7,667 nucleotides of DNA from Prolixibacteraceae bacterium (lineage in GTDB: Bacteria > Bacteroidota > Bacteroidia > Bacteroidales > Prolixibacteraceae): assembly GCA_017998095.1 (NCBI GenBank), contig JAGODU010000186.1, forward strand, positions 1-7,667, in the 5' to 3' direction. Shown here piece by piece: positions 2,171 to 7,667 of the stretch (its first letter is position 1; each line of letters opens with the position of its first letter). The notes below the pieces were generated by a model. It worked only from the letters and a program-made list of their open reading frames with translations. It ran no database searches and was not told the DNA's origin. Position numbers and translations under genes: made by a program.

Positions 2171-3184
2171 TCAGCTGCCAACCACCCTCCTCCTGAAGAA
2201 ACTGTAAGGCCTGTACAGATAATACACTATCTTATATTTCGAGTCGATATTGTTTAAATCGCCGGCATGAAATATTGAAGTTATAAACTTCTTCTTTACT
2301 GATATCAATCCGGGAAACATAAGCCACTGATAAATGTAATTCTCAATGATGTTACTTGTCTTGCCGATTTCCCTGTTTTCGTTTTCTATCGTCTTTATTG
2401 GTATTGAAATAAAAGAAGAAGGAACCCGGCATTTATAATTAAAAGGCAAGGTGTAATTGAAATATTTTTCAAGCAGAATATTCGTTTGCCTGACTATCCT
2501 TTCTGCTTTAAACTCTCTTACCAAACCGGAGAACTTCTCTTTATCTATATCTGAAACAGGATAATCTCTTATATCGAGCAACCACTTGAAATTAGACCAG
2601 GCATGCTTTGATCCGTGTATCAGCAGATTAACCAGCTCAAACTCCTTGTTCAAAACAAGCAGCTTCCTGCCTGCATAGTTTATCTCGGTCAGGTTTTCAT
2701 TCAACAATTCCTTAAATCTCTTTTCTGAAACAGGAATACATTGATTCAATGCCCAATGCAATTCTACATGTAATTTCTTACCCTGACTGTCAAATGCAAT
2801 ATGATTGCTCGATTCTATTATCAATTCCTGCTGAATCTTCTTTTCCGGCCAGCAAAACTCTTCACTGAATGTGTAACCGCTACCAAGCAACACTTCAACT
2901 GCCCTGCCAATTATTTTGCTATCAACATAAATATCGGCATCAACCGATTTTCTGATTGAAGCATCTCCATAAATACGATATGAAAGCATTGCCCCCTTGT
3001 AGCATACAAAAAAAACCTCATTGCTTATAAGAAGATCGGCCAGGGATATGAAATACTTTACCCTTTCCAGCTGCCTCATCTTCTCCGCCAGATACCTGCT
3101 GCCGCTGTTTTCATTTAAAAGTCGGTCGATCTGCTGATGACTAAGCTGATGCCTGCTATGCAATATTTTACGATTGAATATCAT
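2171..3184 (-). CDS. Nucleotidyltransferase family protein, NTP_transf_5 type (337 aa)
   Basis: Shows the sequence pattern of the uncharacterised nucleotidyltransferase family common in lasso and HprK/PqqD clusters. A KGAML loop at 63-67 precedes SYRIYGDASIRKSVDADIYV, with R78 and the acidic pair D82/D84 in the place of the metal-binding aspartates. Then come VELHW at 140-144 and LIHGSKHAWSNFKWLLDI at 188-205, a late conserved block of the family. The acceptor is unknown. Some members accompany precursor kinases, so a role in modifying the RiPP is inferred rather than shown. Last gene of the operon: the start overlaps the cyclase gene by 17 nt, and a hairpin array begins about 10 nt after the stop. 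The C-terminus is very basic (FFRRRVV). Confidence 0.85.
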   Translation of the reverse strand: MIFNRKILHSRHQLSHQQIDRLLNENSGSRYLAEKMRQLERVKYFISLADLLISNEVFFVCYKGAMLSYRIYGDASIRKSVDADIYVDSKIIGRAVEVLLGSGYTFSEEFCWPEKKIQQELIIESSNHIAFDSQGKKLHVELHWALNQCIPVSEKRFKELLNENLTEINYAGRKLLVLNKEFELVNLLIHGSKHAWSNFKWLLDIRDYPVSDIDKEKFSGLVREFKAERIVRQTNILLEKYFNYTLPFNYKCRVPSSFISIPIKTIENENREIGKTSNIIENYIYQWLMFPGLISVKKKFITSIFHAGDLNNIDSKYKIVYYLYRPYSFFRRRVVGS

Positions 3185-4997
3185 GCAAATATTTCTTCTT
3201 CAATTCAATATACTTCAAATATTGACTCACCTTCCCAATGCTTTTTCTTCCCTTGTCAAAATCAACTACAGGGGTTTCTGATATTTTCTTAATAATGTCA
3301 AACTTAACAAATGGAATGTGCTCTCTCTCAGTAAGATTATTGAACTTTTCTTTTATCAGGCGAATACCATCAAGCCTGTTTTGTTGTGAATATGCAATAC
3401 GCAAGGCTTCTCCCTTATCACGTCGCACCCGCACTTTTTCGGTCATGATACCCTTCAGTGCTTCGCGATACAGGTTTCTTGATTTCATATTCCTGTAGGT
3501 GTATTCAACCGGAACACTAAACCAAAACTCAAGCAAATCCTTATCAAGCAAAGGATATTTATATTCAAATCCATACCTTTCTGCATTTATAGCCCACGAA
3601 TCTATCCTTTCCACAAGATGATAATTTTCAAGCAGGTTAAGCATGAACCCGGTACGATTGCCATAACCAAAAACATTCATCCTGTTGTGAAAGAATATCT
3701 TCCGCCAGTGCTTTAATACAAAACCCGGTTTCAATAATTTAAGTTTCGACCAATCGGTATATGATGCTTTGTATGTTTTTACCAGACCAAAGGGAACAAG
3801 CAAGGGACCAACATCTTTTAACAAACGCCCAAGTGTTGATTTTAAACTGATAATCTTAATGTACCTCAGGATAGTCAGCCACTTAAAACTAAAGAAAAGA
3901 TGATTGTATGTACCTCTCGTGCTTAGTGTTACAAACTCATCCCCACCCCAGCCGCTGAAAAGAATCTTTACCCTGTCGCCCCCAGCATCTTTCATCGTTG
4001 GGAGCTCTATCTGCTGCGTCTTAAATTCAAGTGTATTTAAGCCTGTAATTGGATGATCCGGATCTTCCTTTTGATATTTTACCTCCACACCTTTATCTTC
4101 GCAAAAAGCCTCTATAAATTCCCTTTCATCAATCCCGTCAAATTCTCCGTTAAAATTGTCGGGAGTCCATGAATATCCAATAAGCTCCGACTTATCTTTT
4201 ACATTGTCGGCCAGGATACATGCCACTCCTGTTGAGTCGATGCCTCCACTTACATGAACACCGGTCTTCACCGGCTCCATTCTTGAAATAGTAGCTTCAA
4301 CAAGAAGCTCTCGCAATCGGGCAATAGCTCCTTCATAGGTAAGACTCTTGTCCTGTTTGATATTTTCAGGCTTCCAGTATTTTATAGCTTTCTTTTTTTC
4401 AGAAGAAAAAGAAACAACATATCCGGGAGTTACATTTAAAATGCCTTCAAAATAAGTAGTTTCATATTTTCCTTTGAACCTGAAAAAGTCGTTGATAAAC
4501 CTTTCTTCTGATATTGATGATTTAAAAATTCCCGATTTCATTAGGCCAAACTCATGTGAAGCAAATATCACCTTAGAGCCTGTTTTGCAGTAAACCAAAG
4601 GTCTGCCCCCGATATGATCACGAAGAAGATGAAGCTCGTTATTCCTGCGTTCGTAAATAACCACAGCAAAATCGCCGTTAATATGATTTGCACAATCAAT
4701 GCCCCATTTTCTGAATGCCTTTGCAAAAGCTTCTTCTACTGATTCATAATCAAAGTGTGTCTTTAATTCTCCTTGCTTATAAATCCTTGCATCGGCAACA
4801 ACAAGTAAATCATCGTCAGCGTATATGCCGGCTTTTCTTTCACTTTCAGGGTGAGTGCAAATGCCTGCTGCAAAGTTGCCAAAGTGCTTTTCTTCTGAGG
4901 TAAAAACATCCCGGCACAAACCTTTAGCTAATGCTTTTATATCATGATTGTCAATATCGTGAAAGCCAAAATCTAATATCCCAAATATGAAGCTCAT
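3168..4997 (-). CDS. Asparagine-synthetase-like lasso cyclase, C protein (609 aa)
   Basis: Two-domain architecture of asparagine synthetase B. The N-terminal glutamine-amidotransferase-like domain (about 1-200) keeps NGDFAV (107-112) and RDHIGGRPL (126-134). It begins MSFIFGI, without the catalytic Cys2 of true AsnB, so it should not hydrolyse glutamine. The synthetase domain has the PP-loop SGGIDS at 250-255, SGWGGDEF at 348-355, and YGFEYKYPLLDKDLLEF from 475. Lasso C proteins use this domain to adenylate an Asp/Glu side chain and close the isopeptide ring. Position right after B1 and B2 supports that role over asparagine synthesis. The small ORF at 7469-7552 offers no Asp/Glu after its predicted cleavage point, so the substrate is unclear. 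3 nt after B2; overlaps the next gene by 17 nt. Confidence 0.87.
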   Translation of the reverse strand: MSFIFGILDFGFHDIDNHDIKALAKGLCRDVFTSEEKHFGNFAAGICTHPESERKAGIYADDDLLVVADARIYKQGELKTHFDYESVEEAFAKAFRKWGIDCANHINGDFAVVIYERRNNELHLLRDHIGGRPLVYCKTGSKVIFASHEFGLMKSGIFKSSISEERFINDFFRFKGKYETTYFEGILNVTPGYVVSFSSEKKKAIKYWKPENIKQDKSLTYEGAIARLRELLVEATISRMEPVKTGVHVSGGIDSTGVACILADNVKDKSELIGYSWTPDNFNGEFDGIDEREFIEAFCEDKGVEVKYQKEDPDHPITGLNTLEFKTQQIELPTMKDAGGDRVKILFSGWGGDEFVTLSTRGTYNHLFFSFKWLTILRYIKIISLKSTLGRLLKDVGPLLVPFGLVKTYKASYTDWSKLKLLKPGFVLKHWRKIFFHNRMNVFGYGNRTGFMLNLLENYHLVERIDSWAINAERYGFEYKYPLLDKDLLEFWFSVPVEYTYRNMKSRNLYREALKGIMTEKVRVRRDKGEALRIAYSQQNRLDGIRLIKEKFNNLTEREHIPFVKFDIIKKISETPVVDFDKGRKSIGKVSQYLKYIELKKKYLHDIQS

Positions 4998-5000
4998 AAT

Positions 5001-5414
5001 TTATACACTGAATATTTCTTTAAAATTCATTCGCCCGCGGGCAGTAACATTATATTCTCCCGACTTAAGCCAGGCATGGGCAATAAGTTCTTTCCCGTCT
5101 TTAAACTGAAGTCCCAGATACATGACAGAACTTATTTTTCTCCTTTGCAACATAAACCTGGCAGCAAACGATTTTACAATGCATATATTTTTCCAGAACG
5201 AAAGTTTGTTTGCCCTGACAACTGCATCATGTATTCGTATTAATTGCTGAAGATCTGGAGATTGATTCAACGAAGAAGAAGGCTTAAAGAATCTAATACA
5301 AAACTTAAAAGGCAAATAAAGAAATGCTTTTGAAAAAAACAAAAAGAATACTGCTTCAAAAAACAATAGCTTTTCATTCAAATTTAGCTTGGAAAATTTA
5401 TAAATTTCACTCAC
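5001..5414 (-). CDS. Lasso peptide B2-type leader peptidase, transglutaminase-like (137 aa)
   Basis: B2 proteins are cysteine proteases of the transglutaminase fold that remove the leader after B1 binding. Visible here are a hydrophobic N-terminal segment rich in F and L (about 16-43), typical of the family, then C78 in the stretch FWKNICIVKSF (active-site Cys), a basic helix RFMLQRRKISS, and the histidine in IAHAWL (H113). The third catalytic acid is not obvious: E120 is the nearest candidate, and no Asp lies about 12 residues after the His. The start is GTG at 5412-5414 (GTGAGTGA), inside the end of the B1 gene; the next in-frame Met is M98, so GTG is the credible start. Length about 140 aa is usual for split B2 proteins. 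Confidence 0.85.
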   Translation of the reverse strand: MSEIYKFSKLNLNEKLLFFEAVFFLFFSKAFLYLPFKFCIRFFKPSSSLNQSPDLQQLIRIHDAVVRANKLSFWKNICIVKSFAARFMLQRRKISSVMYLGLQFKDGKELIAHAWLKSGEYNVTARGRMNFKEIFSV

Positions 5415-5673
5415 AAACTTTAATTATATCAAACTTAACTGCTTTTTCAAGAAAGGTATTCACTTCATCTTTACACTGTTCGGGTGTCACATTAAATTCA
5501 GCCAAAAGAACAGAACATATATCTTCAAAACTTTTTGGTTCTTCTATAATTTCCCAAATACGCTTGGCAACAGGGTTCAAACCAAAATATTTTCCTTTAT
5601 CGAGGTGCATCATTACCTGATTGTTGTCAAGCTCTCCATCAATTATCTGATCATTTCTGCAATATCTTTCCAT
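5407..5673 (-). CDS. PqqD-like RiPP recognition element, lasso B1 protein (88 aa)
   Basis: A single winged-helix PqqD-like domain fills the protein: strands around residues 13-30 (the stretch MMHLDKGKYFGLN), a helix with IWEIIEE at 39-45, then FEDICSVLLAEF at 49-60 and a C-terminal helix ending FDIIKV. This is the family pattern (LDKGKYFGLNPVAKRIW) of stand-alone B1 proteins, which bind the leader of a precursor and present it to the B2 protease. Length is normal. Its ATG is 6 nt after the sulfotransferase stop. Its last codons overlap the start of the B2 gene by 8 nt, which suggests coupled translation of the two partners. Confidence 0.88.
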   Translation of the reverse strand: MERYCRNDQIIDGELDNNQVMMHLDKGKYFGLNPVAKRIWEIIEEPKSFEDICSVLLAEFNVTPEQCKDEVNTFLEKAVKFDIIKVCE

Positions 5674-5679
5674 CGTAAA

Positions 5680-6561
5680 TCAAACTGTTAAATTGTTATT
5701 CATATCTATATACCCGAATTCTTTCATTACTTCAAAGTTGTATTCCACAATCTTTTGAACGCCTTCGGGAGAAAGGAAATCACGGTAATTGCCAATCTTG
5801 CCCTTCCAGAAAAAACTGTTGCACAACTGCATCTTTTCAGAAAACCCTTTTTCCTTTTCCATCTGCTGCAGATATTTGAAATCGCTGTTTCTGATTGCTC
5901 TTTCCAGCTTTTCCTCATCGTATTCAAGCTTAAGAAAACGAACAGCAGAGCCAAAGGTTTCAAGCGGATTTTGAAGCATATCTTCATACTTAAGAATGTG
6001 GACAGGGATTTGAGTTTGTTGCTGCCAGCTCTTTACATGGCTCTTCCACGACATCAGAATCTGGCGCAGCTGTCCCCGCTTTTTACCTGCCAGAAAAGCA
6101 TCTTCATTCATTAAAAAATTCAAAGTATTTTCAATCTCGCCTGCACTGTGATTAGCATACGAAACACACACATCAAGCGGATTGCGTATGAAGTATAATG
6201 CTCCCATACTTATTTCCGACGGAAACAAGGCTTCGCCGTTTCCATTTAAAGTATAAGCATCATGCGTCTTCTTGAAAACAAGGTTTTCTCCCTCATTGTC
6301 TGCACTCATCGAAACATATCGATATATGTCAGGTCGATACAAATCAACCTCATCGGGAGTCATTTCAAAAGGATTGAGTCCTGTATTATACTCAAAATCA
6401 GAAATACCGCTTGCAATAGGTGTTGATTCAATTTCATCAAGAGGAACAGGCTCCATGGCGTTTTTCAGATAGTTGGCCAGAAACATCCTGAACCAGGTAT
6501 TACCCGATTTAGGGTAAGAAGCCAGCCAGACAATATTCTTTTTCAAACCCGTCTGTATCAT
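5680..6561 (-). CDS. PAPS-dependent sulfotransferase (293 aa)
   Basis: Belongs to the cytosolic sulfotransferase family (sulfotransfer domain 1). The 5'-phosphosulfate loop is YPKSGNTW at residues 16-23. KKTHD at 97-101 supplies the likely catalytic base H100. The 3'-phosphate-binding strand and helix are RNPLDVCVSY at 126-135. The C-terminal KGKIGNYRDF at 253-262 corresponds to the family's KGxxGxW/Y element near the PAPS adenine. No signal peptide or membrane segment is seen, so it should act in the cytoplasm on a hydroxyl of a small acceptor. Within a RiPP operon the natural inference is sulfation of the peptide product, but the small ORF has no tyrosine, so Ser/Thr or a non-peptide acceptor must be considered. 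It overlaps the kinase gene by 4 nt. The cysCD pair in this window would help supply its donor. Confidence 0.9.
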   Translation of the reverse strand: MIQTGLKKNIVWLASYPKSGNTWFRMFLANYLKNAMEPVPLDEIESTPIASGISDFEYNTGLNPFEMTPDEVDLYRPDIYRYVSMSADNEGENLVFKKTHDAYTLNGNGEALFPSEISMGALYFIRNPLDVCVSYANHSAGEIENTLNFLMNEDAFLAGKKRGQLRQILMSWKSHVKSWQQQTQIPVHILKYEDMLQNPLETFGSAVRFLKLEYDEEKLERAIRNSDFKYLQQMEKEKGFSEKMQLCNSFFWKGKIGNYRDFLSPEGVQKIVEYNFEVMKEFGYIDMNNNLTV

Positions 6562-7391
6562 TTTGTCAGCTCTTTTTTAACAACATCCATTGCGGAATAA
6601 ATATCGCAAATCTGGGGACGAACGATTGTCGTCACCTTGCATCCGGAAGCTACGCTTAGTAATTTTCGGAAATATTCCTTTTCAGTATTGGGCATCCCCT
6701 TAAGATAAATCCTACGGTATATTTGTTTACGAAGAACATTGTACTTTGCAATACCGCTGAGCTCCTCAACAATAAACTCATCCGTATTGTGAGTGCTGAG
6801 AATGAAGATGTGGTCAAGCTTTTTTTCGGCATTAAACAATTGAAAGTCGGGAATGTAATATTTCTCAAAGGCAGGCCTTATCCTTGCAAAACCATTATTT
6901 TCAATATTTAATTTCTTAAGGGCATCGTTCCACAATTTCACCTTGCTTTTCAGTGGAACAACAATGGCATCTTTGCCTTCAATCCTAATCGGAGAAAGGT
7001 CGTCACTTATAAGCTTTGCACCATTACGGCAAAATGCCGCAGAAACAGACGACTTTCCGGAACCTGAATTTCCGCAAATCATAACTCCTTTGCCCTCATA
7101 TTCAAAAGAATTGCCATGCAGAGGCATCATCGACCTTTGGTGCAGCAATGCAGAAAGGACAGTCCCTTGCAGGAAAACATCAACCGAATCATCATCTATA
7201 CCATCGTAGGGTTTAATAAAAACCTTTTCTCCGTCGTGTACCCAATAGCGGGCAATATTCTTAACATCAATAAAAAAGCTGTCATGGTTGACCTTCATGA
7301 ACGGGCGGTCGAGCACCGGCGATTCAGAAAAATCAATATCCTTGTCGACTACCTTCACAGTAGCACCATCAATACACAAATTAAAATTCAT
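6558..7391 (-). CDS. HPr kinase/phosphorylase-like RiPP tailoring kinase (277 aa)
   Basis: The C-terminal half has an HprK-type fold signature. A Walker A loop GNSGSGKSS at residues 107-115 follows the strand EGKGVMIC, and an acidic pair SDD at 129-131 sits where HprK proteins carry the Mg-binding or catalytic aspartates. L91-H92 in front of the P-loop also fits the usual pattern. It lacks the N-terminal HprK domain with clear similarity to true HPr kinases, and no HPr or PTS gene is nearby. In lasso clusters of the paeninodin type, kinases of this family phosphorylate a serine of the precursor; S22 or S5 of the small ORF would be candidates here. First gene of the six-gene operon; its stop overlaps the next start (ATGA). 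An upstream ATG (minus strand, near 7411) runs into TAA after two codons, so ATG at 7391 is the likely start. Confidence 0.85.
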   Translation of the reverse strand: MNFNLCIDGATVKVVDKDIDFSESPVLDRPFMKVNHDSFFIDVKNIARYWVHDGEKVFIKPYDGIDDDSVDVFLQGTVLSALLHQRSMMPLHGNSFEYEGKGVMICGNSGSGKSSVSAAFCRNGAKLISDDLSPIRIEGKDAIVVPLKSKVKLWNDALKKLNIENNGFARIRPAFEKYYIPDFQLFNAEKKLDHIFILSTHNTDEFIVEELSGIAKYNVLRKQIYRRIYLKGMPNTEKEYFRKLLSVASGCKVTTIVRPQICDIYSAMDVVKKELTK

Positions 7392-7422
7392 AGATAAAAT
7401 TTATATCATATACTTTCTGATT

Positions 7423-7438
7423 CGGGGCTTCAGCTCCG
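7423..7438. repeat. Short GC-rich hairpin with TTCA loop upstream of the kinase gene
   Basis: CGGGGC (7423-7428) and GCTCCG (7433-7438) pair over six positions, with one G-T pair, around the loop TTCA. Two more wobble pairs are possible outside. It lies between the precursor ORF and the kinase start, with no T-tract. It may act with the neighbouring stem-loop as a processing or attenuation site in the leader of the operon mRNA; that role is inferred from position only. Confidence 0.5.
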
Positions 7439-7450
7439 GGACTTCAACAA

Positions 7451-7491
7451 GCTCAGCCACCGATTAAGTTACTGCCCAACGGTGGCTGAGC
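7451..7491. repeat. 12-bp perfect inverted repeat (stem-loop) over the 3' end of the precursor ORF
   Basis: GCTCAGCCACCG at 7451-7462 pairs perfectly with CGGTGGCTGAGC at 7480-7491, leaving a 17-nt loop that contains the TAA of the small ORF. The right arm encodes most of G-S-A-T-V. Outside the stem, pairing continues partly (A7449-T7493, C7448-G7494, T7444-A7498, T7443-A7499), as in a decayed longer palindrome. No T-run follows on either strand, so it is not a classical terminator. It could reduce read-through from the precursor into the operon. Confidence 0.75.
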
Positions 7492-7552
7492 CTGCCAAAT
7501 CCACCACTTCCGGCGTTTGCCATTCTTTTTTTAGAGTTGATTCATCTTCCAT
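7469..7552 (-). CDS. Putative lasso-type RiPP precursor, leader-like peptide with almost no core (27 aa)
   Basis: This 27-codon ORF lies directly upstream of the maturation operon. Residues 8-19 read KKEWQTPEVVDL, followed by A-G-S-A-T-V-G-Q and TAA. An aromatic residue (W11), then P14, hydrophobics V16 and L19, and a Thr one residue before a Gly (T24-V-G26) match the known lasso leader pattern, in which B1 binds the aromatic/Pro/Leu stretch and B2 cuts one residue after the Thr. If G26 is core position 1, the core is only GQ. An in-frame ATG four codons upstream (7562-7564) would give 31 aa; the start is undecided and neither has a clear Shine-Dalgarno. No alternative frame offers a long core: +1 gives seven residues before a stop. 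A palindrome overlaps codons 21-25, so truncation by a repeat is a real alternative. Family membership is inferred from motif and position. Confidence 0.6.
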   Translation of the reverse strand: MEDESTLKKEWQTPEVVDLAGSATVGQ

Positions 7553-7645
7553 AGTTAAAGACATTAAGGTAAATTTCCAATATCATTTTAAGAAAAACTT
7601 TTCAAATTTCAATCAATTGATAAGAAATTTTAACCCTGACCCTTG

Positions 7646-7667
7646 CTATTGACCAACGGTGGCTGAG
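7646..7667 (-). CDS. 3' end of a second precursor-like peptide gene (cut by the window edge)
   Basis: Only the last six codons and the stop are inside the window: TCA GCC ACC GTT GGT CAA TAG, read on the minus strand, giving SATVGQ-stop. The same six residues and stop end the complete small ORF at 7469-7552. The first 15 bases of the two copies are identical. After that they differ only at third codon positions (GGT/GGG, CAA/CAG) and in the stop (TAG/TAA). I infer a paralogous precursor peptide just outside the window. With so little visible, a copy of a dispersed DNA repeat remains possible. Confidence 0.4.

Follow-up and report, generated by a model that had tools for sequence, protein, structure and literature searches.

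Gene content of the locus

The window, which is the whole 7,667-nucleotide stretch of Prolixibacteraceae DNA that was analyzed, carries a lasso peptide gene cluster on its minus strand. An HPr-kinase-like gene (HprK; positions 6558 to 7391) of the paeninodin kinase type matched PF07475 with an E value of 2.7e-07 and 30.7 bits, below the cutoff of 33.3, and has kept its Walker A motif. It is followed by a sulfotransferase gene (5680 to 6561; PF00685, above the cutoff), a gene for a PqqD-like, leader-binding B1 protein (5407 to 5673; PF05402 above the cutoff, NF033536 at 67 bits, below its cutoff of 80), and a gene with a GTG start for a transglutaminase-like B2 leader peptidase that retains the Cys and His motifs (5001 to 5414; PF13471, and NF033537 above the cutoff). 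The asparagine-synthetase-like lasso cyclase (C; 3168 to 4997) matched PF00733 above the cutoff, and its best NCBIfam match was NF033535, below the cutoff. The remaining genes encode an NTP_transf_5 nucleotidyltransferase (2171 to 3184; PF14907), an adenylylsulfate kinase (CysC; 1257 to 1823; TIGR00455, above the cutoff), and the small subunit, subunit 2, of sulfate adenylyltransferase (CysD; 357 to 1253; TIGR02039, above the cutoff). The motifs of the kinase, B2, cyclase, B1, and sulfotransferase match their counterparts in as many as eight related loci, where the genes are present. All five genes are full-length open frames with their motifs kept, and the B1, B2, and C components of a lasso cluster are thus all present and intact in their motifs.

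The proteins most similar to HprK among protein records were P0001 (96% identity) and P0002 (75%). Within 393 genomes of the order that includes G007, a Bacteroidales bacterium and the source of locus L008, the best identity to HprK was 47%. The best CysD match (80%) was in genome G217; a search across the family of G217 (123 genomes) gave no HprK match at an E value of 1e-40 or lower, an empty answer that is uninformative. No relatives of HprK were found among viral contigs. The sulfotransferase gene, together with the downstream CysC and CysD genes on the same strand, suggests that clusters of this kind may make sulfated lasso peptides. A sulfotransferase gene has already been mentioned in some Firmicutes lasso clusters (PMC8498205). 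A search of the open literature on lasso peptides and sulfotransferases, one review included, yielded no report of a sulfated lasso product.

A short open reading frame (ORF) precedes the operon at positions 7469 to 7564 of the minus strand, with the HprK start 77 nucleotides after its stop codon. It has 31 codons, or 27 from the ATG at 7552, and its translation is MSLTMEDESTLKKEWQTPEVVDLAGSATVGQ. A hidden Markov model (HMM) built from 110 family members, with the ORF itself excluded, matched it with 29.7 bits over model positions 1 to 19 of 42, and the match ended at Leu23, base 7496. The first-pass annotation had described a 31- or 27-codon ORF with a recognizable leader in front of a B1/B2/C operon, and both the reading frame and the HMM score bear this out. 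The leader part, KKEWQTPEVVDL (7496 to 7564), includes the aromatic-x-x-Pro-x-aliphatic motif as WQTPEV; a YxxPxL leader motif has been described for lasso precursors (PMC10368454). No second family member among those listed has the leader sequence PEVVDL.

The remainder of the ORF, AGSATVGQ and a stop (7469 to 7495), stands in place of a core. In the family alignment, Thr falls at position -2 and Gly at +1, so the core consists of Gly-Gln only, and the ORF does stop two residues past the expected cleavage point, as had been noted, with no Asp or Glu left at positions 7 to 9 to accept the ring. The ORF ends in Gln, and the C-terminal Ser that is the kinase substrate in HprK clusters is absent. 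The Asp that follows the Leu in 101 of the 110 parsed family members is also missing.

A promoter-like site with 10 of 12 matching bases lies before the ORF on the minus strand (7612 to 7585; sigma-70-type scan only), and the ORF may therefore be expressed, as judged from this site. The region around it contains six such sites compared with 0.9 expected. The Bacteroidota promoter pattern had no match on the minus strand.

Precursor family and orthologous loci

Related loci were collected with an HprK alignment search, of which the best 80 of 87 were kept, and all 80 were scanned for precursor ORFs and with the HMM. Nine of the 12 Bacteroidota loci L001 to L012 contain small ORFs that share this leader. 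Longer ORFs with a core, the observation that the first-pass annotation had set against its own proposal, occupy the same position directly upstream of HprK in L004, L007, L009, L011, and L012. These five precursors have 38 to 42 residues (counted from an inner Met in L004 and L007), carry Asp or Glu as core residue 8 or 9, and end in Ser, and the gap from the precursor stop to the start of the HprK match is 68 to 191 nucleotides. Among the best 80 of 87 related loci, 31 have a sulfotransferase gene directly after HprK. Loci L002, L005, L010, and L043 hold two to four precursor copies with differing cores beside the enzyme genes.

The profile search yielded 111 family members of 31 to 61 residues, 110 of which could be parsed in a fixed register; P0145 was left out because the pattern could not parse it. 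In all 109 parsed members other than the window ORF the core has 13 to 25 residues, with a C-terminal Ser in 108 and with Asp or Glu at core position 7, 8, or 9 in 102. The window ORF is alone among the 110 in having a two-residue core. These results document a Bacteroidota precursor family (111 matches) that is encoded next to kinase and sulfotransferase genes and has cores ending in Ser. The C-terminal Ser is the target of the paeninodin kinase (PMC8498205), and one related kinase is described as acting on Ser3 rather than on a C-terminal Ser (PMC10368454).

A palindromic repeat begins where homology to the family ends

Inverted-repeat analysis revealed a palindrome that overlaps the end of the ORF, a feature that the first-pass annotation had missed. 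The first arm, GCAGGCTCAGCCACCG (7480 to 7495, minus strand), forms a 16-pair stem with the second arm, ACAAGCTCAGCCACCG (7447 to 7462, plus strand), to which it is identical at 14 of 16 positions; the 17-nucleotide loop spans 7463 to 7479. The stem opens at 7495, the base next to the end of the HMM match at 7496, and the tail of the ORF is composed of arm and loop. Both the Thr at -2 and the Gly at +1 are read from the arm. Because homology ends at 7496 and the palindrome begins at 7495, the "TVG" that resembles a cleavage site is read from the repeat. As single-stranded DNA, the palindrome region folds with a z score of -2.5, and 4 of 200 shuffled sequences folded as well.

The arm is also found elsewhere. 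The window contains three copies of its 11-base core, CTCAGCCACCG, compared with 0.04 expected, and the third arm copy is at the right edge of the window (7647 to 7667, minus strand). Dispersal in the genome of the window itself rests on these three copies. The 15-base arm, CARGCTCAGCCACCG, was present in 27 of the 393 genomes from the order of G007, and a control with the reversed pattern counted 0 in the genomes listed. Arm copies numbered 22 in G086 (exact), 8 in G324, and 6 in G171. Twenty stretches around listed arm places were fetched, and most of the copies from G086, G324, and G171 extend to CTTCGACA(A/G)GCTCAGCCACCG. In the window, ACTTCAACAAG precedes the second arm at the same place as in this extended repeat, and the first arm keeps the repeat consensus in its inner part only. 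The arm was absent from loci L001 to L050, the nearest related loci included, and 17 bases of the arm matched at three loci among viral contigs.

We rejected the view that the dispersed repeat is present in every one of the 27 arm-containing genomes. Three fetched matches of the six in G061 (L131, L132, and L133) are ordinary coding sequence, specifying TGSATV in a repetitive protein, so 27 genomes is an upper figure and counts of the arm pattern overstate the dispersed repeat. The repetitive protein presumably resembles SprB. Arm matches also cluster in G374, G310, and G314.

A second family of inverted repeats, of the GTTAGAAAGCTTCGCTTTCGTTAG type, is present in two spacers of the window, at about 227 to 360, which follows CysD, and at 1895 to 2165, between CysC and the NTP_transf_5 gene. 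The presence of this second kind of inverted repeat in two spacers suggests that the genome contains many such elements.

Probable truncation of the precursor gene by the repeat

The explanation that we favor, with a probability of roughly 80%, is that the ORF is a precursor of the Bacteroidota kinase/sulfotransferase lasso family that has lost the core half of its gene, and that the repeat, directly after the last homologous leader codon, supplies AGSATVGQ and the stop. The dispersed palindromic repeat would start right after the leader and replace the core-coding half. B1 proteins bind leaders (PMC8498205), and the translated peptide is predicted still to bind B1. B2 could cut the peptide, releasing only Gly-Gln. 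Because neither Asp/Glu for the cyclase nor a C-terminal Ser for the kinase remains, no lasso would form. We infer that the loss of the core came with the insertion of the repeat and that the window ORF makes no product.

A dead cluster would not be expected to retain intact enzymes unless it has a further precursor, and none was found in the window: a search of six frames, with stretches of at least 12 codons between stops, gave no second match to the family HMM at an E value of 1 or lower. The operon may be maintained thanks to a precursor copy that lies beyond the window. The presence of at least two precursor copies, with broken or uncertain ones counted, in 4 of the 12 loci L001 to L012 makes such a working copy plausible. 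Broken copies were found in 3 of these 12 loci. The copy upstream of HprK has an in-frame stop inside the leader in L001 (9528 to 9668) and L006 (9705 to 9848), and a copy in L005 (16942 to 17049, minus strand) is interrupted by a stop immediately ahead of the leader motif. L005 and L006 also hold intact precursor copies; one L005 copy (7326 to 7463) lacks the Trp and is uncertain. The first-pass annotation had offered a damaged or decoy precursor, with the working one to the right of the window, as one of its readings. The damage part of this reading is supported, since orthologs have a core and homology stops at the repeat, and a working copy to the right of the window is plausible. Its other suggestions, that the mature product is not a classical lasso peptide or that the leader acts in trans, found no support at this locus.

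Because of where the repeat sits, Thr and Gly occupy the family positions -2 and +1, a match that might point to selection. When insertions were modeled in an idealized simulation, 7% placed Thr at -2, and 1.4% combined this Thr with Gly, Ser, or Lys as the first core residue; these figures are post hoc. The T-x-G register was rejected as evidence because the repeat can give such a register by chance. We treat it as a chance feature seen after the fact, and it is the main reason for keeping a functional remnant in consideration.

Such a remnant could be a functional leader-only peptide that occupies B1 as a decoy or regulator, or that serves a core supplied in trans. The leader residues kept in the ORF, the promoter-like site upstream, and four Balneolaceae genomes with ORFs, located between HprK and B1, that terminate directly behind this leader motif are in line with this possibility. 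However, the tail at the window locus is repeat DNA, a core is present in all 109 other parsed family members, and the Balneolaceae genomes have no match to the lasso cyclase model and seemingly represent another system. We consider a functional leader-only peptide very unlikely.

The Balneolaceae ORFs (L142, L143, L144, and L145) end just after a W..P.II.LD motif, as in MDNNKTANKKSWHKPEIISLD; in a fifth genome (L146) the frame is not kept. The search covered 92 genomes of the family and 244 of the class of G013, and only these five had B1 with at least 69% identity. Their B2 gene is either elsewhere in the genome, as in G011, G012, and G965, or was not found. The lasso cyclase model matched in 0 of the 5 genomes, whose completeness is uncertain, and in 9 of 14 controls, below the cutoff. 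Leader-only ORF places were also noted in L018 (10915), L019 (4801), and L015 (10893). By analogy, the Balneolaceae ORFs, although part of a different system, seem to be the closest parallel to a leader that works by itself, and this small clade with stand-alone leader peptides merits its own test. Leader-only peptides might be a real class that occupies or regulates B1 in trans, with the window ORF having reached the same form through a repeat that keeps the cleavage signature; we regard this as quite unlikely.

It is very unlikely that the truncation is an artefact of assembly or strain mixture, in which the leader was misjoined at a repeat arm. The right end of the window does lie inside another arm copy, as where assemblies break. 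However, the same 31-residue protein is encoded on a 1,165-nucleotide contig, apparently a second record (P0167), and the distance from the ORF stop to HprK is close to that in the five relatives. The repeat is also shorter than usual assembly word lengths, which counts against such an artefact. Least likely of all is that the palindrome is a working hairpin between the precursor and enzyme genes, an attenuator or mRNA stabilizer that can extend into the ORF without harm, as the ORF is only a translation leader: it folds better than most shuffled sequences and sits at the precursor/enzyme border, but no terminator-like site was found in 7300 to 7667, no Rfam family matched in the window, and the arm is absent from the 50 related loci.

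Truncation by the repeat explains what had looked like a novel type of lasso product: a palindromic repeat sits within the precursor gene. A look-alike cleavage motif contributed by a repeat could mislead genome mining. No account of a palindromic repeat truncating a lasso precursor was found in the openly available literature that was searched.

Comparison with known systems

The enzyme set is similar to that of paeninodin-type phosphorylated clusters, which have an HPr kinase, split B1 and B2, C, and a nucleotidyltransferase (PMC8498205). Members of the window family end in Ser, and a protein of the paeninodin family (P0197) was the weakest profile match (E value of 9.9). The window differs in being a Bacteroidota cluster with a sulfotransferase and CysC/CysD and in having a precursor without a core. 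The Bacteroides ihuae cluster (L009) and other Bacteroidota orthologs have the same order of precursor, HprK, sulfotransferase, B1, B2, and C and the leader WVTPEIIDL. The B. ihuae HprK is 45% identical in its best segment; its precursor, in contrast, is intact with 41 residues. The window ORF is most likely a new, broken member of this kind of precursor.

The palindromic elements of Rickettsia are likewise short, dispersed, palindromic repeats read in frame inside ORFs (PMC2229807). Those elements are 105 to 146 bp long and are described as fused in frame within conserved protein genes (PMC2229807), whereas the repeat in the window spans about 49 bp and terminates the ORF.
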